A stretch of 25,325 nt of DNA from a virus. A program made the translations under genes and the position numbers. Positions within the stretch are counted from its first letter, which is position 1. Every line of letters begins with the position of its first letter. Shown here piece after piece: positions 1,306 through 19,297 of this stretch. The stretch lies in the IMG/VR virus record IMGVR_UViG_3300027797_001635, positions 1 to 25,325 of that record. One strand, 5' to 3'. The notes below the pieces were generated by a model. It was not told the origin of the DNA. It saw only the letters and a program-made list of their open reading frames with translations, and searched no databases.

Positions 1306-2595
1306 TTATATTTTATTTAGTTTAGGTATTTGCATCTTTGATGAATTCACTTTTGGAATATTAAATGGAACTAATTTTGGTTGTATCTTAACATAGTGCT
1401 CCAACATTTGAGTAAATTTATCATTCATTTTATCTAATGTAAAATTATTTAATGTATTGGTTTTTAGTCCTTCAGATTTCTTACTATAAGTATCATATTT
1501 GTTGTAAACATCATATATTTTATTTGCTGCATTTGAATAATTTGCTGTAAACCATTGTGCTTCTTTCATACAAAATTGGTCTGCTGCTGATTCATGCACT
1601 GGTGTTAAACTACCTTCTAACAATACTGCATTTTCTGCGGGTAAGAAATCTAATTGCCCACTCCAACCACTAGCTATAATTGGTTTACCTGTCAAAGTAA
1701 ACTCAGCCATAGGTCTACCATATCCTTCACCTTTAGTAAATGATAACATTGCTTTAACTTTAGGGTGGTGGTATAAATTACTCATATCAGTTTCTTCCAT
1801 ATCACCATGTATTAAATATACAGATGGACATTTATCTCCAAGTGGTTTTAATACACTTTCCAATTTTTCTCTAGTTCCTTCCCTATCTATTACACTAAAT
1901 CCAGCGTGTGATGTTTTAACAATAAGACCTGGTCTTTTATCTTTTGGTAAGTATTGAAATACGGTTGCAAATGTTTTAATTGCCATACCAATATCTTTTC
2001 TATCCTGTCCTAACTCTCCCCTCAACCAATGCCCTACAATTAGAAAGTTGAAATCTTCTTTTACATTTTCCAATACATCTTTACCGCTTCCTTTGGAAAA
2101 TATTTCAGTATCAACTCCCTCAAAAAGAACTTCAATTGGTTTTGTTACTTTAATTTCTCCAACAATTTGTCCACTTGCTTGGTCTTTTTGTTGATATACA
2201 GTTCCACCAATATTTTGTCTTGTGAAATTAGATGGTACTATGATTAAATCCATATTGTTGCACCCATCAATAAAATCTTTTGGACAAATTGTAGTTTCAA
2301 CACCAGCAGTTATACCAATGTTATAACCACCCTTTGCACTAAACTCATTTGCTACTGATACCTGAATGAATATATCCGGCTTATCCCTAACTTCTGTAAT
2401 AACTCTTTCTAACATCCATCTTCCGAAATCACTTTCACCATCAACTTGATTTTGTGGAGTATTACCCCATCTTAAAGGTATAATCTTAATATCATACTTA
2501 TCCATCTTGCGTAAAGATTTCATTAAATCTCTAGAATGGTCACCGTAACCACTACGAGTGAATATAGGTCCTTGAAATACTAATGTTGGTTTCAT
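1306..2595 (-). CDS. GT4-family glycosyltransferase (GT-B fold), 429 aa
   Basis: This is a retaining GT-B glycosyltransferase that would transfer a sugar from a nucleotide-sugar donor. The N-terminal domain starts with a beta strand and a glycine loop (FQGPIFTRSGYGDHSRDL, about residues 7-24), typical of GT4 acceptor domains. The C-terminal donor domain has the EX7E signature GEGYGRPMAE (E290 and E298), followed by GKPIIASGWSGQLDFL, where the family usually contacts the donor. VLFEGVDTEIF (about 157-166) resembles the interdomain link of GT4 enzymes. Length is usual for the family. It lies 9 bases after the second glycosyltransferase and just before an unknown gene and the collagen-like fibre gene. 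The acceptor could be virion protein, host glycan or modified DNA; the position favours virion protein, but that is inference. Confidence 0.88.
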   Translation of the reverse strand: MKPTLVFQGPIFTRSGYGDHSRDLMKSLRKMDKYDIKIIPLRWGNTPQNQVDGESDFGRWMLERVITEVRDKPDIFIQVSVANEFSAKGGYNIGITAGVETTICPKDFIDGCNNMDLIIVPSNFTRQNIGGTVYQQKDQASGQIVGEIKVTKPIEVLFEGVDTEIFSKGSGKDVLENVKEDFNFLIVGHWLRGELGQDRKDIGMAIKTFATVFQYLPKDKRPGLIVKTSHAGFSVIDREGTREKLESVLKPLGDKCPSVYLIHGDMEETDMSNLYHHPKVKAMLSFTKGEGYGRPMAEFTLTGKPIIASGWSGQLDFLPAENAVLLEGSLTPVHESAADQFCMKEAQWFTANYSNAANKIYDVYNKYDTYSKKSEGLKTNTLNNFTLDKMNDKFTQMLEHYVKIQPKLVPFNIPKVNSSKMQIPKLNKI

Positions 2596-2604
2596 TTATA
2601 TAAC

Positions 2605-3987
2605 TTATTTAATTTTAAATACTTCGAATCTTTCTCTTGGTTTCCAATTTTCAAAAACTGATTCGATTCCGTTTTCTAATTGCTGACACATATTTGTATG
2701 TGTTAATCCCATCTCTCCGATAAATGCTTCTCTACCCACTAATGCGTTTGTTTTACGAACTTCTTTTGGTGTGTTGTACATTTTCTCAATTGTTTCAGCA
2801 ACATCCTCTATATCAACTCTATCATCCCAAATATAAGGTGTTGGTACTGAACCTGCTAATGCCAATGCTCTACTCCATACAGGCAATGCCCAAGGGCCAG
2901 GTTTAGCTTTACTTTCCCACTTTCTCCACTCATGCAAAGAACCAATTTTAATGTAATCTTCTGCAATTAGTATCTTACCATCAACTTCAAATCCACATTG
3001 GTCTTGCAATCCGCCAGTTACGTTTACAATGATTGGAGTCCCAGCCATTATCGATTCTGCAGTTGCTAATCCAAATCCTTCGTTGTTAGCTATGTTGATT
3101 GTTGCATCTACCATATTATAGATAAGATTCAATTCTTCTTGAGGTCTTCTCTTTTCTGAAAATATAATATTACATTCAGGTGCCATTACATCTATTACCG
3201 CGGGTAAATCAGTACCATTCTCATCAACAGGTTGTGTATGCATTACTAAACAAACTTTCTCTGCTTTTTCTTTACCTATCTTGTCACAAAACTTTTTAAA
3301 TGCTACAATAACATCTGCAGGTTGTTTTCTTCTGATATTACGATTTGACCAATATAGTACAAAATCATAATCCTTTCCACCTAAAATTTCTTTACGGAAT
3401 TCCGCAGGCACATCCGCTGGTTTATATACATTAGTATTAATACCATGTGGCACATAACTTACTTGCCAATCCTTTTTAGGTTTCCAAGTTGGTTTAGTAT
3501 CTAATGCTGATAATCTTTTAATGATACCATACGTTTGACGTGATATACAACCAATCCAATCACAACTTTCATAGAAGTTACGATTATATAATGGGTCTGG
3601 TAAATCATCCCAAATTGCGTAGAATAAAAGAGGAACATTTTGTCTAATTTCATGTTCGATATCATACAACCATGTCCAATAACGAGGGTCAGTAAAGTGT
3701 AGGATAGCATCTGGCTTTTCAGTATTGATTAATTGTCTAATCAAATCAGCGTTACCATAACCATTCCAAGGTAAAATCTTTACACTAGCATCAGCTATTC
3801 CATAATTTTTTTGAATATCTTCACTAACATCTAAAACTTTACCAGCTTCAGGATGATTAATAGCTGCTCCCACCTGAAACCAATCGTATTTATGAACTGT
3901 ACCAAGTACTAATTCTTTTGACATAGTAGCTATACCACTTGCCATTCTTAAATCATCCGAGAGTAAAAGGATTTTCTTTTTTGCCAT
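2605..3987 (-). CDS. GT4-family glycosyltransferase (GT-B fold), 460 aa
   Basis: This is a second GT-B glycosyltransferase, clearly diverged from its neighbour. The N-terminus MAKKKILLLSDDLRMASGIA matches the opening strand and Gly-rich loop of GT4 proteins. The interdomain region carries VPHGINTNVYKP (about residues 179-190), and the donor site has the EX7E motif NEGFGLATAESIMAGTPIIV (E303 and E311) followed by NVTGGLQDQ. A run near residue 211 (LYWSNRNIRRKQP) fits the start of the donor domain. It is 15 bases downstream of the small ribbon-helix-helix gene and 9 bases upstream of the first glycosyltransferase, so all probably share a transcript starting at the promoter near 5172. Two consecutive transferases suggest sequential addition of two sugars. 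The substrate cannot be read from the sequence. Confidence 0.88.
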   Translation of the reverse strand: MAKKKILLLSDDLRMASGIATMSKELVLGTVHKYDWFQVGAAINHPEAGKVLDVSEDIQKNYGIADASVKILPWNGYGNADLIRQLINTEKPDAILHFTDPRYWTWLYDIEHEIRQNVPLLFYAIWDDLPDPLYNRNFYESCDWIGCISRQTYGIIKRLSALDTKPTWKPKKDWQVSYVPHGINTNVYKPADVPAEFRKEILGGKDYDFVLYWSNRNIRRKQPADVIVAFKKFCDKIGKEKAEKVCLVMHTQPVDENGTDLPAVIDVMAPECNIIFSEKRRPQEELNLIYNMVDATINIANNEGFGLATAESIMAGTPIIVNVTGGLQDQCGFEVDGKILIAEDYIKIGSLHEWRKWESKAKPGPWALPVWSRALALAGSVPTPYIWDDRVDIEDVAETIEKMYNTPKEVRKTNALVGREAFIGEMGLTHTNMCQQLENGIESVFENWKPRERFEVFKIK

Positions 3988-7663: not shown

Positions 7664-10204
7664 AAACTTTTTTGCGTTTTGAGAATCCGCCGATGCCATT
7701 TCCCACTTCAATGCACCATAGAAATCATTTAATTTATTTTCTAATTCCGCTTTATAAATCCCATCTCTATCAACATATTGATTGATAAAATCTAAAATTT
7801 CTTTTGGGTCATTATAATCTCTAAATGCCAGAGTTTCTATCCCTAATGGATTACTTTTAAGATATACCCATTTAACTTTTTCACCATCTCTAATTGGTTC
7901 GTATTTAAACGGACATTCAAAGAATTTGAGTAATCGGTTATAGGTAATACCGGCTTTAACGTGTGCGGGTGTTCCTTTTTCAAAATTAGCAATAGCTAAC
8001 CCACTATCTTTTCTCCACTTACCTTTATCGTATTTACTTAATTCTTTAATAGCTCCACCTTTGGCGATTTTATTAATACGAAGATTTGGTAAACTCTTTT
8101 TAAATTCCAAAAGTGATTCATTTATTTCCTGATTTGTTTTACCCATTAGAATGTCTTTTAACATCTGAGCCATAAAATCCTGAAACGCTTTGGGGAATGA
8201 ACTTCTAACTACATCCAATCCTTTAACATCCAACTTATCACATGGTATTCCGTTTTTCAAAATCATCCATTGTGCATATCGTTTCTTTGCTACCCAAAAT
8301 CCAGCTTTACTGATATATTCCTTTTTAATTTCAAATCTATGTTTATCTTTTGGAATACAAAAAAATCGTTCAGCTAATAGGTCATAAAACGAATTTAAAA
8401 ATGCCTGTGTTTCATCTGCAATAGTATTTACTTCTTGCGCCATTCTATTTTGCTCAAACGTTTTATATTCAGGATATCTATGTTTTACCAAAGGTTCAGC
8501 CATCATATAAATTGAATCGGTATCTATATAAACATTATAATCTTCCTTTGTACCTAATTCTTTTTGATATTTAAGATTTGCCATTTCAGCAGTTTTTTTA
8601 ATTACAGTTTGTCCAGTAATTGTAACTGCCTCTGCGTTATCTATATCATAAAAACGAAATGCAACTAATCCTAATACACCATACATTGAATTTAAAAGAA
8701 TCTTTTGTACTAATTGACGTTTACCGTAGAATTCATATTTTTCAGTATCTCCCGCTTCTCCATACTTTTTTTCCAATTTTCTGAATTCAACCCTTTGTTT
8801 GAACCAACTATCCAATATATCAGCAATCAAACCCGGTTTCTTTTGAGTATATAATACTCCATTTGCAGCAACTCCCAATTGATTATCAGCAATAACTTCT
8901 TCTAATTCTTTTCGGTTATATGAAAATTCTTTTGTTTTTCCTACTATCGTATATTGTCTATCTTCACCTCTAACCCAAGATTCAGGATTCCAATCTGCAA
9001 TCTTACCAACCTTTGTTTCAGGACTAATGTTTAAGGTCATAATGATTGATGGATATAGGGATGTTAAATCCAAATCATATATCCAATCGTATTTTCCAAC
9101 AATAGGTTCTTTTACATATGCCCCAATGAATTTTTCTTCACCTGCTTCAGTTTGTTCTGCAAGTTTATCTTTATGATTTTTTGGTTTATTTGGTGCTACC
9201 AATCCTTTCTTTTTAAGATAAGCCAAACATGCTCCTTCTAAATACTTTGATGAAAAAATATAATCTTCATATGGAGTAAATCCAGAATGGCAAATAGCTC
9301 TTGATAAATCTATAAATTGTAATTTCGCATCCATCTCTACTATCAATTCAACATCAACAATATTATACTCAATAAACTTTTCCAAATCATTCTCAAATAA
9401 GTCATCCAAACTTCCTTCATATTCAATCTTACCTCTACCCAATTCTTTTGTTGCGATATGATTAAGTGTATATGAACTCTCTAATCCAAAGTTATAACGT
9501 TTATATAATCCAATGTAATCCATAATACTCACACCCGCAACACTATAACGCTTACGATATGGTGACCAATATGTCCTACCTATGCAAGAAAGACGACTTG
9601 CGTGTCTTTCACCACATACATTTTTAATACGATTGAAAAGATATGGAACGTCAAAGAAATCAATATTCCAACCCGTCCATATTGTTGGATTAACACCTTC
9701 ATAGTAAGTTAGATATCCCATAATGAGAGCACGTTCATCATCATATACATGCATATGAACATCCCTACCATTCTTATTAAATGATTTACCTTTTACTTTT
9801 TGTTTTTTATCAACAACAAATACATGATACTCTTTTGATACATCATCGTATGCCGCGATTGAAGTGATTTCATTTTCAGCTTTTTCAATGCTTGGAAGTC
9901 CTGTTATCATTTCTACCTCGATATCAAATGTTAAAACGATATGCCCCTTTGATGGTACATCATCTCCATATAGGTCAACTAAAACTCTAGTGGTTTCAGG
10001 TACATCTGATTCGAATAGTTCTTCTCCACTATCCTTTTCCCATTTAAATATTTTGGTTAATCTATCACCATACATCGATTGATGTTGGCCGTTTGGGTCT
10101 TTGACATATGCATATCTCTGATATGGAAATGTGCGATACCCTAACGTGTCATCCCATAGGTGTATTAAATTTTTTTGTCTTTCGAAAAATATGTTTTGGT
10201 ACAT
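7652..10204 (-). CDS. gp43: Family B DNA polymerase with 3'-5' exonuclease, gp43-like, 850 aa
   Basis: This is the replicative polymerase. Exonuclease motifs are ExoI LTFDIEVE (D94 and E96), ExoII GWNIDFFDVPYLFNRI (D182) and ExoIII YNIVDVELI (Y280 and D284). Polymerase motif A is DLDLTSLYPSII (D377/D379 region, SLYPS 382-386), motif B is KILLNSMYG (N505), and motif C is YIDTDSIY (D561 and D563). All catalytic residues are present. At 850 aa it is a little shorter than T4 gp43 (about 898). No intein or split is seen. The ATG overlaps the stop of the upstream methyltransferase by one base (TAATG), and the clamp gene lies upstream of that, so clamp, methyltransferase and polymerase should be made together. 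The gene ends inside the next promoter region. Confidence 0.97.
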   Translation of the reverse strand: MYQNIFFERQKNLIHLWDDTLGYRTFPYQRYAYVKDPNGQHQSMYGDRLTKIFKWEKDSGEELFESDVPETTRVLVDLYGDDVPSKGHIVLTFDIEVEMITGLPSIEKAENEITSIAAYDDVSKEYHVFVVDKKQKVKGKSFNKNGRDVHMHVYDDERALIMGYLTYYEGVNPTIWTGWNIDFFDVPYLFNRIKNVCGERHASRLSCIGRTYWSPYRKRYSVAGVSIMDYIGLYKRYNFGLESSYTLNHIATKELGRGKIEYEGSLDDLFENDLEKFIEYNIVDVELIVEMDAKLQFIDLSRAICHSGFTPYEDYIFSSKYLEGACLAYLKKKGLVAPNKPKNHKDKLAEQTEAGEEKFIGAYVKEPIVGKYDWIYDLDLTSLYPSIIMTLNISPETKVGKIADWNPESWVRGEDRQYTIVGKTKEFSYNRKELEEVIADNQLGVAANGVLYTQKKPGLIADILDSWFKQRVEFRKLEKKYGEAGDTEKYEFYGKRQLVQKILLNSMYGVLGLVAFRFYDIDNAEAVTITGQTVIKKTAEMANLKYQKELGTKEDYNVYIDTDSIYMMAEPLVKHRYPEYKTFEQNRMAQEVNTIADETQAFLNSFYDLLAERFFCIPKDKHRFEIKKEYISKAGFWVAKKRYAQWMILKNGIPCDKLDVKGLDVVRSSFPKAFQDFMAQMLKDILMGKTNQEINESLLEFKKSLPNLRINKIAKGGAIKELSKYDKGKWRKDSGLAIANFEKGTPAHVKAGITYNRLLKFFECPFKYEPIRDGEKVKWVYLKSNPLGIETLAFRDYNDPKEILDFINQYVDRDGIYKAELENKLNDFYGALKWEMASADSQNAKKFFEF

Positions 10205-11775
10205 TATGGTTTATAAAATATAAAAATTGGTTCGTATTTGTAAAATTGTCCTTCTATCTGCATGCTATTCTTTGCCTTTGATAAATCCATTCCCGTCATA
10301 GGACTCATTGTCATTCTTAGTTTCCCTTTATATTCACATCCTAAACTTGTAAGGATATCAATACTATCCTGTTCTAATGGATAGAACTTATCAGGACCTA
10401 CTTTAATATCTGCAATATTCCAGCAAATATATCTATCATTACGAAGATACTCATATATAGTTTCAAGCGTTGGTCTTAAAAAGCCATCTCTCCAACTTTC
10501 ATAGTTTCCGAATTTCTTAAATGACTGAGATTCATCATCGGAATATCTTTCTCTATCAAAGTAAGGTGGTGAAGTAAATGCGAAATCCAATTTACCCTTA
10601 TACTTTTGAAATCTAATTTCATCTTTGATTATTTCAGAACCGGTTGTAAATATTTCGTATGTGTTTGCGTGTCCCCAAAATGGGTTTGCAGCGCCAGGTA
10701 CTTTATTGTTAAAGAATTCTGCCAAATACTCGTATCTACTCTTTCCGATTTCTTCAATCCAGTTTTCAGTATTAGGGTCATTTCCTATGTAATGTATATT
10801 TCTATCATCCACGCTCAATGCTCCCAATATTCTACCACCCCAACCCGCCGATGGGTCATATATGTTGATTACATCCTGTTCTTTGATGTGTTGAGTAAAT
10901 CTTTGATATAGATATTTTGCAGTTAATGGTGGAAAGTTTACAACAGCCTGCGTTCCCATTCCAATACGAAATGCTGCAGTTGCTTCTGGAAATATTCGTT
11001 GTCCTAATGGGTATATTTTAATTTGAATTGGTTGTTTTGGTACATCTATTAAATTATCAACATTCTCACCCCAATCCGCAGTTTTAAGCGAAGATATATT
11101 TTCATATTTCAATATCCCAGCTTTGTATAGTTCTTTAACTTCTTGTGCGTTAATTGGTGGGGATGGAACTTTACTATCCGCTTGCGAAAGGCAAAATCCA
11201 TATCCATGCTTATTATTACCAGCTACCCATTTTTCAATCCATTCTTTACCACTTTGGATATGTGAATTATGAAAATCAGGATTATTCAAATGCAATGTTT
11301 TGGAAAAACGATACATACCGTCTTGTCTAGTCAATCGTCTCATTTGTTTAATAAACTCTGGCAAATATAAATCATCTGAAAACACATCATATATAGATGG
11401 TTTTGGTTTATCATATGCACTTCCACCGATTCCGGTTTTATACATAGCTGGAAAGAATTGATTTACCGGTGTTGCAAATTTATTGAAGTTAAAGATGACT
11501 TCGTTTCCGTCATCATCTTTTTCTTCAAATTTATTTACTTTATAAGTTTGTAACTTTGAAAATTGTTCAATCATTTCTGATTCATCTACTCCAATTCTCG
11601 GTGGTGCACCCGTCTCGTTCCACTTTCGTACAGCTAGCTCTCTAAAAAACGCCACCCACTTTTCAAAATCGGCGAATGGCATTTTGAGAACATCTTCATA
11701 CAATAAGTTTACTTTAGGTTCGTACAACCATTCATTCTTTTCGTAGAAATATTTATTTTCGTAATTAAAACTCAT
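10204..11775 (-). CDS. DNA methyltransferase-like protein (SPPY type), 523 aa, between clamp and polymerase
   Basis: The C-terminal half has the SAM-binding motif YDPSAGWGGRILG (about residues 306-318), an acidic motif II region (YIGNDPNTEN) and the catalytic-type motif FTSPPYFDRERY (SPPY 402-405). (S/N/D)PPY is the signature of amino-methyltransferases making N6-methyladenine or N4-methylcytosine. A further block, ICWNIADIKVG, is shared with two methyltransferases downstream of asnB. The N-terminal ~260 residues are not recognised and could recognise DNA or partners. It is joined to the clamp gene and to the polymerase gene by one-base TAATG overlaps. That suggests modification coupled to the replisome. 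No restriction enzyme is nearby. Target base and sequence are unknown. Confidence 0.85.
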   Translation of the reverse strand: MSFNYENKYFYEKNEWLYEPKVNLLYEDVLKMPFADFEKWVAFFRELAVRKWNETGAPPRIGVDESEMIEQFSKLQTYKVNKFEEKDDDGNEVIFNFNKFATPVNQFFPAMYKTGIGGSAYDKPKPSIYDVFSDDLYLPEFIKQMRRLTRQDGMYRFSKTLHLNNPDFHNSHIQSGKEWIEKWVAGNNKHGYGFCLSQADSKVPSPPINAQEVKELYKAGILKYENISSLKTADWGENVDNLIDVPKQPIQIKIYPLGQRIFPEATAAFRIGMGTQAVVNFPPLTAKYLYQRFTQHIKEQDVINIYDPSAGWGGRILGALSVDDRNIHYIGNDPNTENWIEEIGKSRYEYLAEFFNNKVPGAANPFWGHANTYEIFTTGSEIIKDEIRFQKYKGKLDFAFTSPPYFDRERYSDDESQSFKKFGNYESWRDGFLRPTLETIYEYLRNDRYICWNIADIKVGPDKFYPLEQDSIDILTSLGCEYKGKLRMTMSPMTGMDLSKAKNSMQIEGQFYKYEPIFIFYKP

Positions 11776-12526: not shown

Positions 12527-12558
12527 CAAATATACGATAATTATTTTAAATTACCAAA
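12527..12558 (-). promoter_or_regulatory. Bacteroidetes-type promoter for clamp-methyltransferase-polymerase operon
   Basis: Minus strand: TTTG (12558-12555), 20 bases, TATATTTG (12534-12527), an exact match to the Bacteroidetes consensus. The upstream block is ATTTGGTAATTT and begins immediately after the stop codon of the preceding methyltransferase gene (12562-12560). CG precedes the -7 box. Confidence 0.78.
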
Positions 12559-12559
12559 T

Positions 12560-13774
12560 TTATTTTTCCCAAATCCATATTGGTTCTCCGAATGCATGGT
12601 TTTTGGTTTCTTCTGCTTTTTCTTTCAATTCATCCGAATAATATTCCGATACAGCCTTCCCAGCACCCCCACTGTTAGGTCTTTTTGTCATTTCCATACC
12701 TATACACCCTTTATAAATTAATCCCTTAGATTGAAGGAAATCGTTCATAGAATTGGTTATATCCACATATCCCTTATCTGGTGCGGAAAATACATCCGCT
12801 ATATTAACTGCTAGTATCCCACCTTTCTTAAGTGTAGGTATAATTTTTTCTAAAGTTGCGTGAAAGAATCCTTTATTCCAATCATCAAACTTTTTATATC
12901 TAACCCAACTCTGTGTAGCGTCTAAGCTATATTTTTCCGTATTGAAGTATGGTGGTGATGTAAAGATTGTATCAAAAAAGTTTTCATACTCGGAGTAATC
13001 CACATCTTCAGCTGCCATTTCTAACATTTTTGCATCCTTATCATCTTCAAAAAATGTTTTATGTTTTTTATAAAATTGTATTTGTTTTTCGTAGTTAGCG
13101 TGATTGTTACTATTCGGGTCAATTCCTAAATAGAATTTTGTTGTTTCTCCTGCAAAAAACCCACATAATCTATCACCCCATCCAGCAGAAAAATCTAATA
13201 TATTTTCACTTTGAAATTTATCATAGAAAGCTTTTGCGATAACTGGTTTAAATTGAGATGCTACATATTTTCGTAAAACGGTTGCCATCCTTAATGTTTC
13301 CTGATTTACCTCTAATAACATTTTATCTAAAGTAAAATACGCTCTTACTATTGTTTTAATACCATCTACCGTTTGCCATGCTTTCCAACCGGAAGGAGTT
13401 CTCACCCAATCAACTTTCCAACGAGTTTCAATATGAAATGGATTCGATGCATTATTACCAACATTTGTTCTTTTAAAATAGTAATTACTATTATCGTATG
13501 TAAGTGGATAGTTTGATACTCTTTCATTTCTAGGAAACCACTTACCTTCAATTAATATATCCGGCCACCAAGTTCCTTTTAATTTTTTATACGCATCAAT
13601 TGTATCTTGTTCCGTTATAATTGGTATTGGAGCGGGATATGTATGTAATACTTCTGATAGTTCGTTTACAATCTCCTCTTTAGTATATGTTTTTATAATA
13701 TCTTGCCACTCATCTTTATTTATATAAAGATATGGTTTCATATTATAAAACTTTTTAAAATGTTCTTTTATCAT
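12560..13774 (-). CDS. SPPY-type DNA methyltransferase paralogue A, 404 aa
   Basis: I place the start at ATG 13774, in an ATGA overlap with the upstream paralogue's TGA; a longer form would need a TTG start. The SAM-binding motif is LDFSAGWGDRLCGFFAG (DFSAGWG about 194-200), then YLGIDPNSNN, and the catalytic-type motif is FTSPPYFNTEKY (SPPY 273-276). QSWVRYKKFDDWNKGFFHATL and ILAVNIADVF follow. The family makes N6-methyladenine or N4-methylcytosine in DNA. The C-terminus (GCIGMEMTKRP, then GEPIWIWEK) closely matches the upstream gene, so the pair arose by tandem duplication. The N-terminal ~150 residues are shared with the paralogue but not with known domains I recognise. It is the last gene of the asnB-GNAT operon. 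No cognate restriction endonuclease is visible. Confidence 0.85.
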   Translation of the reverse strand: MIKEHFKKFYNMKPYLYINKDEWQDIIKTYTKEEIVNELSEVLHTYPAPIPIITEQDTIDAYKKLKGTWWPDILIEGKWFPRNERVSNYPLTYDNSNYYFKRTNVGNNASNPFHIETRWKVDWVRTPSGWKAWQTVDGIKTIVRAYFTLDKMLLEVNQETLRMATVLRKYVASQFKPVIAKAFYDKFQSENILDFSAGWGDRLCGFFAGETTKFYLGIDPNSNNHANYEKQIQFYKKHKTFFEDDKDAKMLEMAAEDVDYSEYENFFDTIFTSPPYFNTEKYSLDATQSWVRYKKFDDWNKGFFHATLEKIIPTLKKGGILAVNIADVFSAPDKGYVDITNSMNDFLQSKGLIYKGCIGMEMTKRPNSGGAGKAVSEYYSDELKEKAEETKNHAFGEPIWIWEK

Positions 13775-15000
13775 AATTTTTTCCAAATCCAAATGGGTTC
13801 ACAAAATGTTTTATCACCGGCCTCCGCGGCTTTTGCCAATGCTTCTTCACTAAATCTACTTTCATCACCTTCTATAATAGAAGCCGCACCCGCACTACCT
13901 GGTCTTTTAGCCATCTCCATACCCAAACATCCTTCGTATTCTGCTCCCAATGTTTTTATAAAATCATTCATTGGATTACATATTTCTTTATATCCTTTAC
14001 CATCACCCTTTGAACTTGCATAAACATCTGCTATATTAATAGCCAGTATTCCACCTTTCTTAATTGTAGGCCAAACATTTGCAATTGTTTTATGGAGAAA
14101 TTGTTTATTCCATGCATCTATATTTTTATATCTTACCCAACTTTGTGTATCATCATAAGAATACCTTTCCACGTTAAAATATGGCGGTGAACTAAATACA
14201 ATATCAAAGTGGTTTTCATACATTGATAAATCCGCATCTTCGGCAGGTGATTCGATAAAATCTGCCGTTTTATCGGTTTCAAAAAAACTATTATGGTTTG
14301 TATAAAATTCAGCCTGTTGTTTATAAATTGGTTGATTTTCTTTTCTAGGGTCAATGCCTACATAATGTTCTCCGAATTCAGATGCAAAGAAGCCACATAA
14401 TCTATCACCCCATCCCGCTGATATATCTAATACATTTTTAGCTTCGTAAAAATCATATAGAACTTTTGCAGCATTTGGTTTAAATTGTGAACATATGTAC
14501 TTTCGTAATGATAAACATACTCTTAACTGGTTTCTACCAACCTTATCAAATTTAAGAGTGTATAATCCACCCATAAGAGTTGTCATAAAATCTTTACTTG
14601 CCCAAGTCCTTTTTGGACCAGGTGATACTGTCCCATCTACACTCCAACGATTCGCTTGTTGAAAGTGATTTGATGAATCATTTCCTGTATTTAATCTACG
14701 AATGTATTGTGGCTTTCCTTTAAAATCCAAAGAATATCTAAATTCAGATGCTTTTCTAGGAAACCATTCACCTTCGGTAAATAATTCATTCCAGCGTATT
14801 CCTTTTAATGCCAAATATTCTTTTCTCGCATCATCCTCACTTATATCCGCATACGGGAGTGGGTATTCCATACAAATTGTAGCCAACGAATCTTTAACAT
14901 CATCTCTATTAAAAGTGGATTTAATATGTTTCCACTCTTGGGTGTTAATATCAAGATAGGGTTGCATACCTTTAAACTTATCAAAATAATCTAAATACAT
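13771..15000 (-). CDS. SPPY-type DNA methyltransferase paralogue B, 409 aa
   Basis: Motif I is LDISAGWGDRLCGFFAS (DISAGWG 192-198), followed by YVGIDPRKEN. The catalytic-type motif is FSSPPYFNVERY (SPPY 271-274), then QSWVRYKNIDAWNKQF and ILAINIADVY. The N-terminal region (KGMQPYLDINTQEWKHI) corresponds to NMKPYLYINKDEWQDI of paralogue A. The C-terminus GCLGMEMAKRPGSAGAA, then CEPIWIWKKL, also aligns. Motif I precedes the SPPY motif, as in gamma-type amino-methyltransferases. ATG 15000 overlaps the GNAT stop by 10 bases, and its own stop overlaps the next start in ATGA. Different target-recognition segments between the pair could give two specificities, or the two could act as a heterodimer. 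Substrate is unknown. Confidence 0.85.
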   Translation of the reverse strand: MYLDYFDKFKGMQPYLDINTQEWKHIKSTFNRDDVKDSLATICMEYPLPYADISEDDARKEYLALKGIRWNELFTEGEWFPRKASEFRYSLDFKGKPQYIRRLNTGNDSSNHFQQANRWSVDGTVSPGPKRTWASKDFMTTLMGGLYTLKFDKVGRNQLRVCLSLRKYICSQFKPNAAKVLYDFYEAKNVLDISAGWGDRLCGFFASEFGEHYVGIDPRKENQPIYKQQAEFYTNHNSFFETDKTADFIESPAEDADLSMYENHFDIVFSSPPYFNVERYSYDDTQSWVRYKNIDAWNKQFLHKTIANVWPTIKKGGILAINIADVYASSKGDGKGYKEICNPMNDFIKTLGAEYEGCLGMEMAKRPGSAGAASIIEGDESRFSEEALAKAAEAGDKTFCEPIWIWKKL

Positions 15001-15512
15001 ACTGTTTCTATATTTTTATCGGCAACTAATCTTAATCTAAAAACTATACCATTAATAATACCATCCTTTTTACTAGTCCAACTTATATCACTATCTTTTA
15101 CAAAACCATATCGTTCATAAAACAACACAGCTCTATAATTGAATGCTCTAACGGTTAAAAATAGGTTTTCCGCGTGAACTGATTTGCAATGCTTTACAAA
15201 TTCTTCTAATACTTCGGTAGTGGCATTTGATTTAGAATGATTAGTTGCAATTTGATGAAGAATAAAATCTCCTTTCTTTTTATATGTGGTTGCGTTTCTG
15301 CTCATTCTACCATGTGATTTATATCTACCAAAGGTGATAACAATACCATCTTGCAGTATCATTCCACCTTTTTCAATATATTTCTCCAACTTAAAGCCCT
15401 GTTTATGAAGGTGTGGAAATATTTCTGGGTACAAATCTATAATAGAAGATGCTTGATTTACTGCTTCTATCATTTCAGCCGAACCCTTTTCTGCTTTTAC
15501 AAAATTAAGCAT
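14991..15512 (-). CDS. GNAT-fold acyltransferase-like protein, 173 aa
   Basis: The GNAT fold is recognised from the C-terminal half: GDFILHQIATNHSKS (strand 4 and the pyrophosphate loop, about residues 81-95), NLFLTVRAFNYRAVLFYERYGFVKDSD (about 116-141), where N..A..FYE..GF is the classic GNAT ending. The usual R/Q-x-x-G-x-G/A acetyl-CoA loop is replaced by NHSKSNATTE, so cofactor binding is atypical or altered. MILQDGIVITFGRYKSHG lies in the central sheet. It overlaps asnB by 8 bases and methyltransferase B by 10 bases. Phage GNAT-fold proteins include Mom of phage Mu, which modifies adenine in DNA; the genetic setting makes a DNA modification role worth testing, but an ordinary small-molecule or protein acyltransferase is also possible. 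Confidence 0.75.
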   Translation of the reverse strand: MLNFVKAEKGSAEMIEAVNQASSIIDLYPEIFPHLHKQGFKLEKYIEKGGMILQDGIVITFGRYKSHGRMSRNATTYKKKGDFILHQIATNHSKSNATTEVLEEFVKHCKSVHAENLFLTVRAFNYRAVLFYERYGFVKDSDISWTSKKDGIINGIVFRLRLVADKNIETVCI

Positions 15513-16962
15513 TTTTAAAAAATTTATTTTGGTTTATTTGGTCTTTATACAAAGATATGGATTTTAATTGAGATTTCAAAATATCTTTTCTGGCTTCCAT
15601 CATATCACCAGTTCTACATCCTTTAGCGAAATACACTTTAGGTCTATATAATAGTTCATCAGAAATCTCTCCTTTAAAAGCTGCTCTTAATAAAGGTTTC
15701 ATATGATTGTTTTCCTTCTGATATAGAGGTGGTATGTTCAATGTATATTCTACAAATGGTCTCCAACTATATGGTGTACGAACTTCAACAGTACCACCCC
15801 ACATAATGGATTGATTGGTAGTTAAGAAGTTTGTTTTATGAACATCCTCTACTAATTTTCTTCTTGCTTTATCATAATCTTCCGGTCTCCAATGAAACGC
15901 TTGAATGTGTCCATAACTACCCCATATTTCATCCGAAAGGTCACCACTAAAGACAACTTTAAATCCCAATTCATTAATCTTCTTAGATAATGCAATTTGA
16001 GCTATCGCTGAACCTACATTCTGCCATCTACTTTGTTCAATAACATAAAGTGTTTCATTGATTGAATCTTCAACATCTTTCTCAGTTAGAATAATTTCAT
16101 GTAGTTTTACACCAAATTCTTTTGCAGCAATTCTGGCATATTTTATATCATCATTCTTAGTATCTCCATCTCCCATTGAAACCACAAATGCTTCAATATT
16201 AGGGTTTATCTTTGAAAGTATGTAAGTTGTTATCACCGAATCAATACCCCCACTTAAAATGGTGCAGATTGGAACGTCAGATACCATCTTTACTTTAACC
16301 GCTTCTTCCAACATCGTTCTGATATTCTTAACAATAGTTTCTCTATCGTCATTTATTATTTCATTTGGAAGTTTATAATATGTTACCGTATTATGTTCTA
16401 ATGTTTTATAGTTGTAATCTAAGAATGTACCTGGATAAATTGCCTTTATTTGTTTTTCGTATAACTCTGAAATTGGTAATCCTTTCTTTTCTGAACAAAA
16501 TACTAATTTACCATCATTATCAATTGCATACCACAATGGTAGTTCACCAACGTAATCTCTGACAACAATTATTTTATTGATTTTAGTATCAACTATTGCA
16601 AAAGAAAACATTCCATCCAAATCTTTGAATGAATCAGTACCAAACTCTAAATACGCATTGAGAATTATTTCAGTATCGGATTTTGTTTTGAATGGGGTTG
16701 TTATACTTTCTTTTAATTTCTTAGTATAAGTACTATCCCATAACTCACCGTTATATACTATACAAACGGTTTTATCTTCATTCCACATTGGTTGATTTGC
16801 AGATGAGGATAAATCTTGTATTGAAAGGCGATTGTGTCCCACATAAAGATTATCAATCTTTTCAACTGCGGAAGCATCTCTACCTCTATGAATTATTTTT
16901 TTTAAATGGGTATGGGTCTGCTTCTTAGAAGTAAACCAATTACCGCCTATTATTCCACACAT
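15505..16962 (-). CDS. asnB: Glutamine-hydrolysing asparagine synthase-like amidotransferase, 485 aa
   Basis: The N-terminal Ntn glutaminase domain starts MCGIIGG, with Cys2 as the nucleophile, so the ATG at 16962 is fixed by function. HRGRDA, HNRLSI (R45) and NGELW (71-75) are glutamine-site motifs, and SDTEI follows at 95-99. The C-terminal ATP-pyrophosphatase domain has the PP-loop LSGGIDS (236-242) and GDLSDEIWGSY, the equivalent of GxGSDExFGGY in AsnB. At 485 aa it is somewhat shorter than E. coli AsnB (about 554). The enzyme would adenylate a carboxylate and amidate it with ammonia from glutamine. Aspartate is the usual acceptor, but relatives amidate sugars and other molecules. It leads an overlapping operon with a GNAT and two DNA methyltransferases, and its promoter should give a leaderless mRNA. 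Confidence 0.92.
   Translation of the reverse strand: MCGIIGGNWFTSKKQTHTHLKKIIHRGRDASAVEKIDNLYVGHNRLSIQDLSSSANQPMWNEDKTVCIVYNGELWDSTYTKKLKESITTPFKTKSDTEIILNAYLEFGTDSFKDLDGMFSFAIVDTKINKIIVVRDYVGELPLWYAIDNDGKLVFCSEKKGLPISELYEKQIKAIYPGTFLDYNYKTLEHNTVTYYKLPNEIINDDRETIVKNIRTMLEEAVKVKMVSDVPICTILSGGIDSVITTYILSKINPNIEAFVVSMGDGDTKNDDIKYARIAAKEFGVKLHEIILTEKDVEDSINETLYVIEQSRWQNVGSAIAQIALSKKINELGFKVVFSGDLSDEIWGSYGHIQAFHWRPEDYDKARRKLVEDVHKTNFLTTNQSIMWGGTVEVRTPYSWRPFVEYTLNIPPLYQKENNHMKPLLRAAFKGEISDELLYRPKVYFAKGCRTGDMMEARKDILKSQLKSISLYKDQINQNKFFKNA
15550..15580 (-). promoter_or_regulatory. Possible internal promoter for GNAT-methyltransferase genes, inside asnB
   Basis: Minus strand TTTG (15580-15577), 19 bases, TATCTTTG (15557-15550), an exact consensus fit located in the last codons of the amidotransferase gene and 37 bases before the GNAT ATG. 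The upstream base context (TTTTGAAATC) lacks the GGTA extension of the stronger set. Chance occurrence inside AT-rich coding DNA is possible. Confidence 0.45.
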
Positions 16963-16966
16963 ATAA

Positions 16967-16998
16967 CAAATTTACGAAACTTTTTTGATATTACCAAA
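16967..16998 (-). promoter_or_regulatory. Bacteroidetes-type promoter for asnB operon, giving leaderless mRNA
   Basis: Minus strand TTTG (16998-16995), 20 bases, TAAATTTG (16974-16967), an exact consensus fit with upstream block ATTTGGTAATATCA. Only four bases separate the -7 box from the ATG at 16962, so transcription should begin at or within a base or two of the start codon. The -33 box lies one base after the thioredoxin stop. Confidence 0.75.
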
Positions 16999-17269: not shown

Positions 17270-17441
17270 TTTTTTTTGTTTTATATTGTTCTATTAATTC
17301 TATATTTCCTTTTATGTGGTTTGGTTCATATGGACAATGGCGGCAGCCACTCCCACAGCAATAACCTCGTTCAATGTGATACTCAGGAGTGAAAACCACT
17401 TTACCATTTTCCAAATAATATAATTCTTTATCATTTTTCAT
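17253..17441 (-). CDS. DUF5522-like small cysteine-rich protein, 62 aa
   Basis: The core YYLENGKVVFTPEYHIERGYCCGSGCRHCPYEPNH (in two parts: ENGKVVFTPEYH, then RGYCCGSGCRHCPY) matches what I recall of DUF5522, a small family frequent in Bacteroidetes genomes. Four cysteines (C28, C29, C33 and C36) in CC-x3-C-x2-C form a plausible Zn or Fe-S site. The function of the family is unknown. It is joined to the ribonucleotide reductase stop by a one-base TAATG overlap and overlaps the thioredoxin start by 17 bases, so it lies tightly between an enzyme and its likely reductant. A role in reductase maintenance, metal or redox handling is an attractive inference. Family membership is from memory of the motif. 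Confidence 0.75.
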   Translation of the reverse strand: MKNDKELYYLENGKVVFTPEYHIERGYCCGSGCRHCPYEPNHIKGNIELIEQYKTKKNELSS

Positions 17442-19297
17442 TATTTTATTTCACATGCACCACCAGCACAAGCTAATTCACCACTTAAATCCGTAGTATC
17501 TTCCATCTCTACAATTTTACTTAAATCAACATCGTTTAATGTTTTCATAAGTTCATCATATTTTTCTTTAGTACAATCTTCAAAAGGTGCCTGAATGTAA
17601 GTACCGCCATCATAAGGTAATACCGATAATCCATTGTAGAATTCTTTATTCTCCCACATCCACTCTCCAACTGCTTTCCACTCATGCTCTCTAATAGAAA
17701 TAGTTGCTGATACGTTATGAGTATTATTACCGCTTCTATGCCCCGGCTTAACCCACTCACTATGTACTTTCTTAACTCTCTCTAATAATTGAATAGGAGA
17801 TTCAGTTCTAAAGATTGCAGTATCAGGTGCTTTTTGAGGAATACCAATTACTGCTGTATCATGTGGTCTGAAATACTCATCCTCTACTAATTCAGGATGA
17901 TTAATTGCTAAGTGAGAATACATTGATTCGTTCTTACCAACTCTTACTCTACGAATATAATAATCGTTATGCCAAGCGTGAATACCAGATGAAGTTCCTA
18001 ATGCCAAAGAAGTAGTTCCAGCAGGCTTAACCGTTGTACATCTTGCCGATGCGTTAATACCTAATATTTCTGCTACTCTTTTGTTTTCTATTTTCACAAC
18101 TTTTGCCGCTTCTTTCATATCCAATTTCAAAACTGCACCACTTCCGATACCTGTCATTGAAATTCCTATTAAGGCATCCTTTTCAGTTGTTCTTTGCCAT
18201 ATAGGTCTTAAGTAATGAAAATCAGTATATCCAGCCTGCAATGTTCCTACAAATGATGCTGCTTTAACTCTAGCATTTAATTCTTCTTGAGTATCAACAT
18301 CACTTACATTCACTTCACATAAGTTACAGAATTGAAAAGGTCTTAATGCAATCTCACAACAAGGATTAGTTCCCCAATCTTTATCATTTGATAAGTAGAT
18401 ACCAGGCTCACCTGCTCCACTTGCTTCAATTCTTTTCCAAAGGTCTAAAAAATATTCTTTTGTAATTTTATGTCTCATTAATACTGCTGAGTTATTTGCC
18501 CTACCTCTTTGTGGATTTGTTTCCCACCACGCACCACTCTTACAACTAATCATTTGCTCGTCAGTTGCGGAAAATAGTGCAATTAGTGCTGCTCTACGGA
18601 TACCACCTGCTAATACTGCATCAGCAATGTGACAAACCATATCATGCACTTCAATTGGTTTTAATTTCTCACCATCTTTTTTTGCATCTAAGATACCTTC
18701 TAATTTAATAAGGCATTCTTTTAGAGGTTGAGGACCTGGTGCTTTACCACCTGATGTTACCAATCGTGCTCCTTTCTCTCTAATATCTCTAAAATCAAAT
18801 ACCGGCTTACTACCACCAAAGAAATATGCCTTTACAATTACTGAAACTGCATCAGCCCATCCTTCAATACTATCACCGATTAAAAATCTTCTTGTTTTAT
18901 CAGTTGATGGCTTTCTAATTTCAGGTAAAGCATCAACGTGATGCTGTTGTACTGAATAACCTACTCCAGTTCCACCTAATAGTAAGAACATAATTTCTGA
19001 AAATACTCTCCAATCATCTACCGGTGCAAATGCACAATTGTAAATTCTATTTGGTGATAATTCAATTGGTTTACCTGCGAACTGCATTGAACGCATTGAT
19101 GGTAATATTTTTTTATTCGATACGAATTTATATACTTCTTTTATTTCCTCTTTTAAATTTGGATATGTCTTTATATGCATATCCATATTTCTTTTTACCA
19201 ACTCTTTCCAAGTTTCTCTCCTTTTTAATTCCGGTCTGTACTTTGCATACTTCATATAAACCGTAATGTCCGATAAAATTCGTGTTGAAATGTCCAT
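17441..19297 (-). CDS. nrdJ: Adenosylcobalamin-dependent (class II) ribonucleotide reductase, 618 aa
   Basis: It reduces ribonucleotides to deoxyribonucleotides using a B12-derived radical, with no small subunit or oxygen needed. Key residues align by spacing with the Lactobacillus leichmannii enzyme: C88 in RIYNCAF (redox partner), C313 in NPCCEI (thiyl), E315, and C324 in FQFCNLC (eleven residues after C313, the other redox Cys). The tail ELACAGGACEIK has C610 and C615, the CxxxxC pair reduced by thioredoxin. LLLGGTGVGYSV and KPAGTTSLALGTSSGIH are conserved active-site loops. There is no N-terminal ATP cone (protein begins MDISTRILSDITVYMKYA), and the length is below the 739 aa of L. leichmannii. 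The gene leads an operon with DUF5522 and thioredoxin. The unusual CC in NPCCEI (commonly CG) is notable. Confidence 0.93.
   Translation of the reverse strand: MDISTRILSDITVYMKYAKYRPELKRRETWKELVKRNMDMHIKTYPNLKEEIKEVYKFVSNKKILPSMRSMQFAGKPIELSPNRIYNCAFAPVDDWRVFSEIMFLLLGGTGVGYSVQQHHVDALPEIRKPSTDKTRRFLIGDSIEGWADAVSVIVKAYFFGGSKPVFDFRDIREKGARLVTSGGKAPGPQPLKECLIKLEGILDAKKDGEKLKPIEVHDMVCHIADAVLAGGIRRAALIALFSATDEQMISCKSGAWWETNPQRGRANNSAVLMRHKITKEYFLDLWKRIEASGAGEPGIYLSNDKDWGTNPCCEIALRPFQFCNLCEVNVSDVDTQEELNARVKAASFVGTLQAGYTDFHYLRPIWQRTTEKDALIGISMTGIGSGAVLKLDMKEAAKVVKIENKRVAEILGINASARCTTVKPAGTTSLALGTSSGIHAWHNDYYIRRVRVGKNESMYSHLAINHPELVEDEYFRPHDTAVIGIPQKAPDTAIFRTESPIQLLERVKKVHSEWVKPGHRSGNNTHNVSATISIREHEWKAVGEWMWENKEFYNGLSVLPYDGGTYIQAPFEDCTKEKYDELMKTLNDVDLSKIVEMEDTTDLSGELACAGGACEIK

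Follow-up and report, generated by a model that had tools for sequence, protein, structure and literature searches.

On balance, the four-gene operon described here appears to be a post-replicative DNA base-hypermodification cassette, in which an AsnB-type amidotransferase and a GNAT-fold acyltransferase form an exchangeable tailoring module. The operon is encoded on the minus strand of the window, the whole 25,325-nucleotide stretch of viral DNA that was analyzed (Table 1). In agreement with the original prediction, its genes overlap by 8 (AsnB/GNAT), 10 (GNAT/M1), and 4 bases (M1/M2; 22 bases with an alternative TTG start of M2 at position 13792, which is likewise open), it has a promoter of its own, and open reading frame and domain calls revealed no restriction endonuclease gene within it. 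The four operon genes had been listed accurately, and a third methyltransferase paralog, M3, located outside the predicted interval, had been overlooked.

Table 1. Features of the operon and its surroundings in the window.
Feature	Position	Strand	Description
AsnB-type glutamine amidotransferase	15505..16962	minus	485 aa; class II GATase and ATP-pyrophosphatase domains
GNAT-fold acyltransferase	14991..15512	minus	173 aa; virus-associated family
M1, SPPY-type DNA amino-methyltransferase homolog	13771..15000	minus	409 aa; 170-aa N-terminal region
M2, M1 paralog	12560..13774 (from ATG)	minus	46% identical to M1
M3, third paralog	10204..11775	minus	523 aa; flanked by the sliding clamp and DNA polymerase genes
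Operon promoter, Bacteroidota-type TTTG-N20-TAAATTTG	16967..16998	minus	4 bases from the AsnB ATG
Clamp-gene promoter, second Bacteroidota-type copy	12527..12558	minus	delimits the operon on its downstream side

The AsnB and GNAT genes lie next to each other in 45 of 46 contig groups, with the single exception lying at a contig end, and the GNAT gene is located within 1–4 genes of an M-family methyltransferase gene in 38 of 45. Since the arrangement is repeated in dozens of other contigs, the gene order is not a product of chance; scattering of these genes in related phages was looked for and was not encountered. The AsnB–GNAT unit is kept together at two genome sites, Trx..clamp and gp44..gp62. 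GNAT and M1 are contiguous in the window group and in the divergent contigs L332 and L348, and in some relatives they are separated by nuclease-like ORFs (HNH, ParB-like, or GIY-YIG) that differ per lineage and look like homing inserts. A restriction partner was rejected on the basis of this lineage variability and of the contiguous order. It was only through M-gene searches that the distant GNAT members surfaced. Among contigs retrieved with M alone, L370, L372, and L373 encode very distant GNATs (31%) directly upstream of distant M genes, and in L366 such a GNAT lies within 3 genes of a distant M gene, in all cases without AsnB. Three other distant GNATs have neither AsnB nor M nearby.

This linkage bears on the reading in which M1–M3 shield the DNA from host restriction by making ordinary m4C or m6A, while AsnB and GNAT are unrelated auxiliaries, one making asparagine or another amide and the other acetylating host proteins. 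We regard this reading as rather unlikely, because AsnB is tied to GNAT, both are tied to M genes, and the link of GNAT to distant M genes persists where AsnB is missing. Some observations are in its favor: M1 is found without a recognized module in several lineages, and host-protein-modifying GNATs are common in jumbo phages (PMC7824862). Some AsnB–GNAT contigs lack M1 nearby, which counts against the cassette reading, as do the M1 genomes lacking a recognized module and the three distant GNATs with neither partner.

Comparison of near-identical relatives revealed that the AsnB–GNAT pair is cleanly replaced by other enzyme modules, with the methyltransferase kept beside them. The modules are denoted as A (AsnB1 and GNAT), B (a TS-like protein, AsnB2, and a PLP enzyme), and C (AsnB3, a hydroxyacid dehydrogenase, and a PLP enzyme), and a further replacement consists of a PLP enzyme alone. 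M1 is 98% identical between L072, which carries AsnB–GNAT, and L073, which carries the PLP enzyme; the swap between L167 and L211 occurs in genomes with a 99% identical polymerase, and that between L211 and L216 in genomes with a 100% identical gp44. The 11 longer records each possess one module, comprising one AsnB gene in ten of them and a PLP enzyme instead in the eleventh, and GNAT accompanies AsnB1 only. The filling of the same slot by PLP, AsnB2, or AsnB3 modules, one per long record, also argues against unrelated auxiliaries beside plain methylation. M1 and M3 are core genes of this virus group, M2 is optional in relatives, and AsnB–GNAT is exchangeable; the gene set is thus not a fixed one.

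The window AsnB shows a strong domain match (PF00733, 4.7e-47, plus GATase), and both the MCGI motif containing the glutaminase Cys2 and the PP-loop SGGIDS (SGGxDS) are invariant in its subfamily. The asparagine synthetase of E. coli and a second aligned PDB asparagine synthetase share the aspartate-binding loop ETYD(V/I)TT(I/V)RAS. In contrast, the window enzyme has EQSRWQNVGSA in place of this loop and GDLSDE instead of GEGSDE, so that, as judged from the alignment, it is atypical of asparagine synthetases in the acceptor loop. It passes the broad asparagine synthase model TIGR01536 (286.4 versus a cut-off of 267.1), as do the enzymes of modules B and C, which is compatible with asparagine production, but scores 288.8 against a cut-off of 499 for the AsnB model PRK09431. 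A role as an asparagine supplier, offered earlier as an alternative, is disfavored by the replaced loop and by the association of AsnB with GNAT rather than with metabolic genes. The AsnBs of modules A, B, and C each form one group in the tree, with A joining C, and share the signature SDExxxSYG with the amidotransferase of phage TurkishDelight. This protein, gp124, is the closest annotated-phage match of AsnB (29% identical over 92%), and its gene neighbors ParB, C5-methyltransferase, and CmoA genes in a carboxymethylcytosine-type cluster; its branch and that of the Motura homolog are too long for placement.

The GNAT domain call, weak with a single sequence, becomes firm when a profile is used (E 1.5e-7), and the FPH, HQI, and VRxxNxxAxxFY motifs are invariant. 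The AlphaFold model (pLDDT 90) matches GNATs in Foldseek with an E-value of 1.8e-7, and among PDB folds it comes closest to PaiA, Ard1, and RimI-like acetyltransferases. No relatives were detected in 84,980 prokaryote genomes searched with the GNAT's own patterns, and none were found among isolated phages. Mom of phage Mu, which has a GNAT fold, produces carbamoylmethyl adenine. The window GNAT shares this fold and is likewise proposed to act on DNA, and the final group here could also be an amide; however, the window protein has no detectable sequence similarity to Mom (BLASTP aligned an unrelated stretch at 21 bits). Membership in the Mom family was thus rejected, and the likeness suggested by the original prediction is an analogy at best.

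M1–M3 have the SPPY motif and hit PF01555 rather than PF00145, and SAM motif I and the catalytic SPPY motif IV are invariant or nearly so across 45 sequences of the three paralogs. By these motifs, they are classified as homologs of amino-type (N4/N6) DNA methyltransferases, and M3 probably belongs to the same functional group as M1 and M2. The N6_N4_Mtase calls for M1 and M2 are weak and consistent, with Pfam below the cut-off, and the family matches MTase_II in PADLOC (9e-9, weak and local). This resemblance to type II DNA methyltransferases would also suit ordinary protective methylation. A profile search of PDB sequences with M1 yielded no match, and its fold matches are generic or tRNA-type methyltransferases, with Trm11 and CmoB among them, the top hits having a TM-score of about 0.3; the fold search was therefore dropped as a guide to the group that M1 transfers. 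Considering these weak or local DNA-methyltransferase matches, the PDB result, and the generic folds, an RNA substrate for M1 is conceivable. The targets of the M-family and module enzymes might then be tRNA, rRNA, or a host protein, for instance RNA polymerase, instead of phage DNA, which would fit the linear I-to-IV motif order of M1, its N-terminal domain, the Trm11 and CmoB matches, and the protein or polyamine acetyltransferases among the GNAT fold matches. We consider this improbable, since the M genes are located among DNA replication genes, the nearest annotated-phage AsnB adjoins a DNA C5-methyltransferase and CmoA, and the alternative-module PLP enzyme is linked to DNA modification in two ways. 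First, the same enzyme is inserted in a ParB-DNA methyltransferase, in the interval between motifs I and IV, in three isolated phages (Erythrobacter R6L and ZS04 and Pseudanabaena Pam4), and it is encoded by an adjacent, overlapping gene in Microcystis phage Mae-JY30. The fusion proteins join an amino-methyltransferase to the enzyme that replaces AsnB–GNAT, but their methyltransferase is of another family, with a ParB domain and neither AsnB nor GNAT. Second, the enzyme is homologous to gp52 of Pseudomonas phage M6, whose gene adjoins that of an amino acid:DNA transferase (ADDT; PF18724, detected in gp51). No PDB sequence was matched by a profile built from one PLP family.

In the proposed hypermodification pathway, the core enzymes M1, M2, and M3 would bind SAM and target an exocyclic amine, that of cytosine or adenine, as suggested by the SPPY motif. 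AsnB would activate a carboxylate with ATP and amidate it using glutamine-derived ammonia, and GNAT would add an acyl group. The product would be a bulky amidated and/or acylated base in DNA that host restriction enzymes fail to cut. Precedent suggests that restriction evasion is the likely purpose, and the CmoY precedent that AsnB may act on DNA. In the system of Synechococcus phage S-B43, CmoY, an asparagine-synthetase homolog, ligates glycine onto carboxymethylcytosine in DNA, and a second CmoY cluster retains the glutaminase domain (Yang et al. 2025, PMC12783734). The window operon resembles CmoA–CmoX–CmoY in placing an AsnB-family ATP-dependent amide ligase, here also with a glutaminase domain, beside a homolog of SAM-family DNA methyltransferases. 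It differs in that its methyltransferases are of the SPPY amino type, whereas CmoX is a C5 enzyme (SPPC, PF00145), and in that it adds GNAT and has a module exchanged for PLP-based ones. The original proposal of a complex base-modification cassette, borne out in part, is strongly backed in comparative terms by the linkage, the module swaps, the PLP–methyltransferase fusions, and CmoY.

Thymidine hypermodification in phages M6 and Salmonella ViI starts from 5-hmdU; amino acids are put on the base and then tailored, in combinations that vary, by PLP enzymes, acetyltransferases, and other enzymes. The homolog of M6 gp52 in the sister modules recalls this scheme, although here the SPPY methyltransferases stand in for the 5-hmdU route. 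ADDT was detected in none of the 11 related records, a weak negative given that no control genome matched, and CmoA (TIGR00740) was not found in these records, which extend up to 288 kb and are possibly incomplete, with only one control genome scoring above the cut-off. A CmoA-dependent route was therefore rejected, as was, more tentatively, an ADDT-dependent one. Thymidylate synthase occurs in three of the 11 records with no AsnB1–GNAT-specific pattern. With neither CmoA nor ADDT found in these relatives, the carboxylate source for AsnB lacks an explanation, which counts against the cassette reading. Speculatively, and with low confidence, the M-family enzymes might attach to cytosine N4 or adenine N6 a SAM-derived handle larger than methyl, and the exchangeable slot beside M1 might switch at least four final chemistries among close relatives. 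An aminocarboxypropyl handle, for example, would not need CmoA and could provide AsnB with a carboxylate and both GNAT and the PLP enzymes with an amine.

To our knowledge, phage hypermodification handles are otherwise placed on pyrimidine C5 or arise via deazaguanine. The latter route is exemplified by the 7-deazaguanine cluster of Achromobacter phage Motura, in which an AsnB-family protein is likewise encoded, immediately flanked by QueC and a transglycosylase gene, but with the active-site signature ADELGLGY versus SDEIWGSYG in the window. If the hypermodification reading is correct, a set of amino-type (N4/N6) methyltransferases, an AsnB-type amidotransferase, and a GNAT would represent a new chemical route. 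Candidate N6-A or N4-C carboxymethyltransferases linked to CmoA were reportedly not found (Yang et al. 2025, PMC12783734). The present phages might harbor an N4/N6 counterpart of the Cmo system operating without CmoA. AsnB1–3, the two PLP families, the TS-like protein, the hydroxyacid dehydrogenase, and the virus-associated GNAT are all candidate DNA-modifying enzymes, and whole-module swaps beside a conserved methyltransferase in nearly identical genomes allow a direct test of diversifying selection on DNA chemistry. It is very improbable that the AsnB–GNAT module makes a small molecule or a surface-glycan building block, as in O-antigen clusters: an AsnB homolog lies among glycosyltransferases in Synechococcus phage S-SCSM1 and the window has two glycosyltransferase genes, but these are approximately 11 kb from AsnB–GNAT and do not move with it, no sugar-nucleotide enzymes were recognized beside AsnB–GNAT, and its constant partner is a methyltransferase.

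The carrier of the operon is a large virus of aquatic bacteria, known from its sequence record alone. A sigma-70 promoter and terminator scan of the window did not exceed shuffled sequences and is uninformative for such a host type, and an Rfam search gave no match. The Bacteroidota promoter motif occurs in nine copies in the window versus 1.5 expected, a number reached in none of 100 shuffles. Since the copy at the AsnB start ends 4 bases before the ATG, the AsnB transcript would be nearly leaderless.

The window is a 25-kb piece of a T4-like phage genome, in which nearly all genes lie on the minus strand. The minus-strand operon comprises AsnB, GNAT and the methyltransferase homologs M1 and M2, in this order, preceded on the same strand by genes for endolysin, SSB, UvsX, an exonuclease, DnaB, ribonucleotide reductase, DUF5522 and thioredoxin, and followed by those for the clamp, M3, DNA polymerase, dUTPase, the clamp loader, an exonuclease and two glycosyltransferases. 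This content and layout are certain, and the coordinates and overlaps (8, 10 and 4 bases) of the original prediction, which had proposed a possible cassette for complex base modification, are correct. The motif TTTG...TAnnTTTG, which we take to be the Bacteroidota promoter type, occurs in 9 copies against 1.5 expected, and the host is therefore probably a member of Bacteroidota. The distance between one copy and the AsnB start codon implies a leaderless or nearly leaderless mRNA; another copy precedes the clamp gene. A 61% relative of M1 also occurs in a Flavobacteriales metagenome bin. Ribonucleotide reductase and DUF5522 are swapped in L009 and L023 for a different pair (337 and 593 aa) at the same place. 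The glycosyltransferases, downstream of the replication genes, have DNA or a surface glycan as a possible target.

Coordinates of features in the window and in loci of other viruses compared with it (L-numbers)
Sequence	Positions	Strand	Feature
Window	1306-3987		Two glycosyltransferase genes (phrog_2170)
Window	10204-11775		M3
Window	12560-13774	minus	M2
Window	13771-15000	minus	M1
Window	14991-15512	minus	GNAT
Window	15505-16962	minus	AsnB
Window	16967-16998		Promoter motif copy, ending 4 bases before the AsnB ATG
Window	17441-19297		Ribonucleotide reductase with B12-dependent insertion-domain match; DUF5522
L019	11752-12492		SGNH/GDSL-like hydrolase
L062	12420-13331		SGNH/GDSL-like hydrolase
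L149	9346-9999		HD-domain protein, immediately upstream of AsnB1
L361	1170-1952		HD-domain protein, two genes past a distant M gene
L278	6890-7981		2-oxoglutarate-type Asp/Arg hydroxylase (Pfam match)
L370	3847-4458		The same (Pfam match)
L372	4649-5263		The same (sequence-like)
L282	2326-4764		Fold-type II PLP enzyme within or directly after ParB-DNA methyltransferase (isolated phage)
L354	2899-5388		The same (isolated phage)
L283	4120-5711		The same (isolated phage)

Loci were collected in IMG/VR with GNAT, M1, AsnB, M3 and two PLP enzymes as queries, and those sharing an identical gene were merged, giving 144 groups at the time of the count. AsnB1, the AsnB of the window type, adjoins GNAT in 45 of 46 groups, the exception (L172) being cut at the contig end; GNAT adjoins an M gene in 28 of 45 groups and lies two to four genes away in 10 more. 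Since the unit is seen both between thioredoxin and the clamp, as in the window, and between gp44 and gp62 (L062-L076), it keeps together at different genome places. The M alignment alone, searched against 84,980 prokaryote genomes, yielded 18 distant M loci. Four of these also have a GNAT of the window's family, immediately upstream of M in three and within three genes of it in the fourth, and none of the four has AsnB (L144 and L370 GNATs share 31% identity, E 3e-18). A PLP enzyme adjoins M in one distant locus, and one carries an HD protein resembling that upstream of AsnB in marine relatives. Neither M nor AsnB lies close to three further distant GNATs (L351-L353). AsnB, GNAT and the M-family genes very likely work together.

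The enzymes beside M1 are exchanged among relatives as AsnB1-GNAT (module A), TS-like-AsnB2-PLP (B), AsnB3-D-2-hydroxyacid dehydrogenase-PLP (C) or a PLP enzyme alone (D), and two modules never occur in one of the groups counted. Of the 11 longer related records searched (up to 288 kb), 10 contain one AsnB gene each and the other carries module D; GNAT is confined to those with AsnB1. Close relatives differ cleanly in their modules: L072 (A) and L073 (D) share 98% identity in M1, 97% in the next gene and 96-97% in the reductase; L219 and L222 (A/D), 99% in polymerase; L167 and L211 (A/C), 99% in polymerase, 98% in thioredoxin and 92% in M1; and L211 and L216 (C/D), 100% in gp44 and 95% in M1. 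The M1 tree of 71 proteins requires at least 18 module label changes (minimum possible, 4; shuffles, 33.5), a count slightly inflated because loci with AsnB more than four genes away were labelled as none.

M1 and M2 are paralogs with 46% identity, and M3, between clamp and polymerase, is a third (31-32% over the catalytic domain). Across 45 sequences from all three paralogs, motif I (DxSxGWGxR), YxGxDP and SPPYF are invariant or nearly so; enzymes acting on exocyclic amines are typically of the SPPY class. The best curated match of M1, whose predicted structure has a pLDDT of 90, is a type II DNA methyltransferase model (9e-9). Some relatives (L014, L029) carry a further, shorter M paralog close to DnaB, and in several without the window's M2-clamp order an SGNH/GDSL-like hydrolase gene comes immediately after M1 or M2.

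In AsnB (485 aa) both the class II glutaminase (Cys2) and the PP-loop (SGGIDS) are intact. The loop ETYD(V/I)TT(I/V)RAS of E. coli AsnB and a second aligned PDB enzyme is replaced by EQSRWQNVGSA, constant across the subfamily as WQN(V/I/L)GSA, and GDLSDE stands where asparagine synthetase has GEGSDE. With 286 bits the protein exceeds the 267-bit cut-off of the broad TIGR01536 model, and with 289 it falls below the 499 required by the model for E. coli AsnB. Its best match in an annotated phage genome, TurkishDelight gp124 (29% over 92%), neighbors two ParB genes, a C5 DNA methyltransferase and CmoA (Cx-SAM synthase). The signature SDExxxSYG is common to AsnB1-3 and the TurkishDelight protein and is not in the two cellular asparagine synthetases aligned. 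The GNAT assignment, weak from the single sequence, is firm by profile (RimI-like, E 1.5e-7), and the predicted AlphaFold model (pLDDT 90) matches PaiA, Ard1 and RimI. Three motifs, FPH, HQI and VRxxNxxAxxFY, show no variation, while the window copy has a degenerate glycine-rich loop for CoA binding.

The PLP enzymes of modules B and C and of D are mutually homologous (hhalign 98%). Three phages, Erythrobacter R6L and ZS04 and Pseudanabaena Pam4, encode the D-type enzyme within a ParB-DNA methyltransferase as one polypeptide, where the insertion separates motif I (DPFAGG) from motif IV (SCPPY); this protein as query matched 316 phage records, nearly all over part of its length. Microcystis phage Mae-JY30 encodes the PLP enzyme as a separate gene overlapping the ParB-DNA methyltransferase, and in Pseudomonas phage M6 a 26% homolog (gp52) adjoins an amino acid:DNA transferase gene.

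Yang et al. 2025 (PMC12783734) show that glycine is joined to 5-carboxymethylcytosine in DNA by CmoY, a homolog of asparagine synthetase. In a large cluster of CmoY relatives the glutaminase domain is retained, which suggests that ammonia serves as the amine there. The window likewise encodes an asparagine-synthetase-family protein, with a glutaminase domain as in that cluster. A carboxymethyl handle is unsupported, since CmoA was not found in the 11 related records. On the basis of such precedents and the PLP, AsnB and methyltransferase associations, the operon may decorate DNA and guard it from restriction; cultured phages with the PLP-methyltransferase pairing offer the quickest real test of decoration. 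Hypermodification of DNA by AsnB, GNAT and the M-family genes is the best explanation, and a moderately probable one. Tailoring of an amino-acid-like substituent would be a fitting role for each of the amidotransferase, acetyltransferase, PLP enzyme and hydroxyacid dehydrogenase; speculatively, such a substituent could come from SAM itself (aminocarboxypropyl).

The HD protein of L361 is 40% identical to the one upstream of AsnB1 in marine relatives, and an HD gene is also present in the phage M6 cluster. In divergent viruses, the Asp/Arg hydroxylase, perhaps a further tailoring enzyme, adjoins PLP-M or GNAT-M pairs. Large lineage-specific ORFs (450-770 aa; HNH, GIY-YIG, ParB-like or unannotated), some resembling homing endonucleases and others unclassified, occur near AsnB/GNAT and M1 in L149, L166, L029, L328, L081, L082, L083 and L211. 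Most of them separate the tailoring module from M1; in L029 the position is upstream of AsnB.
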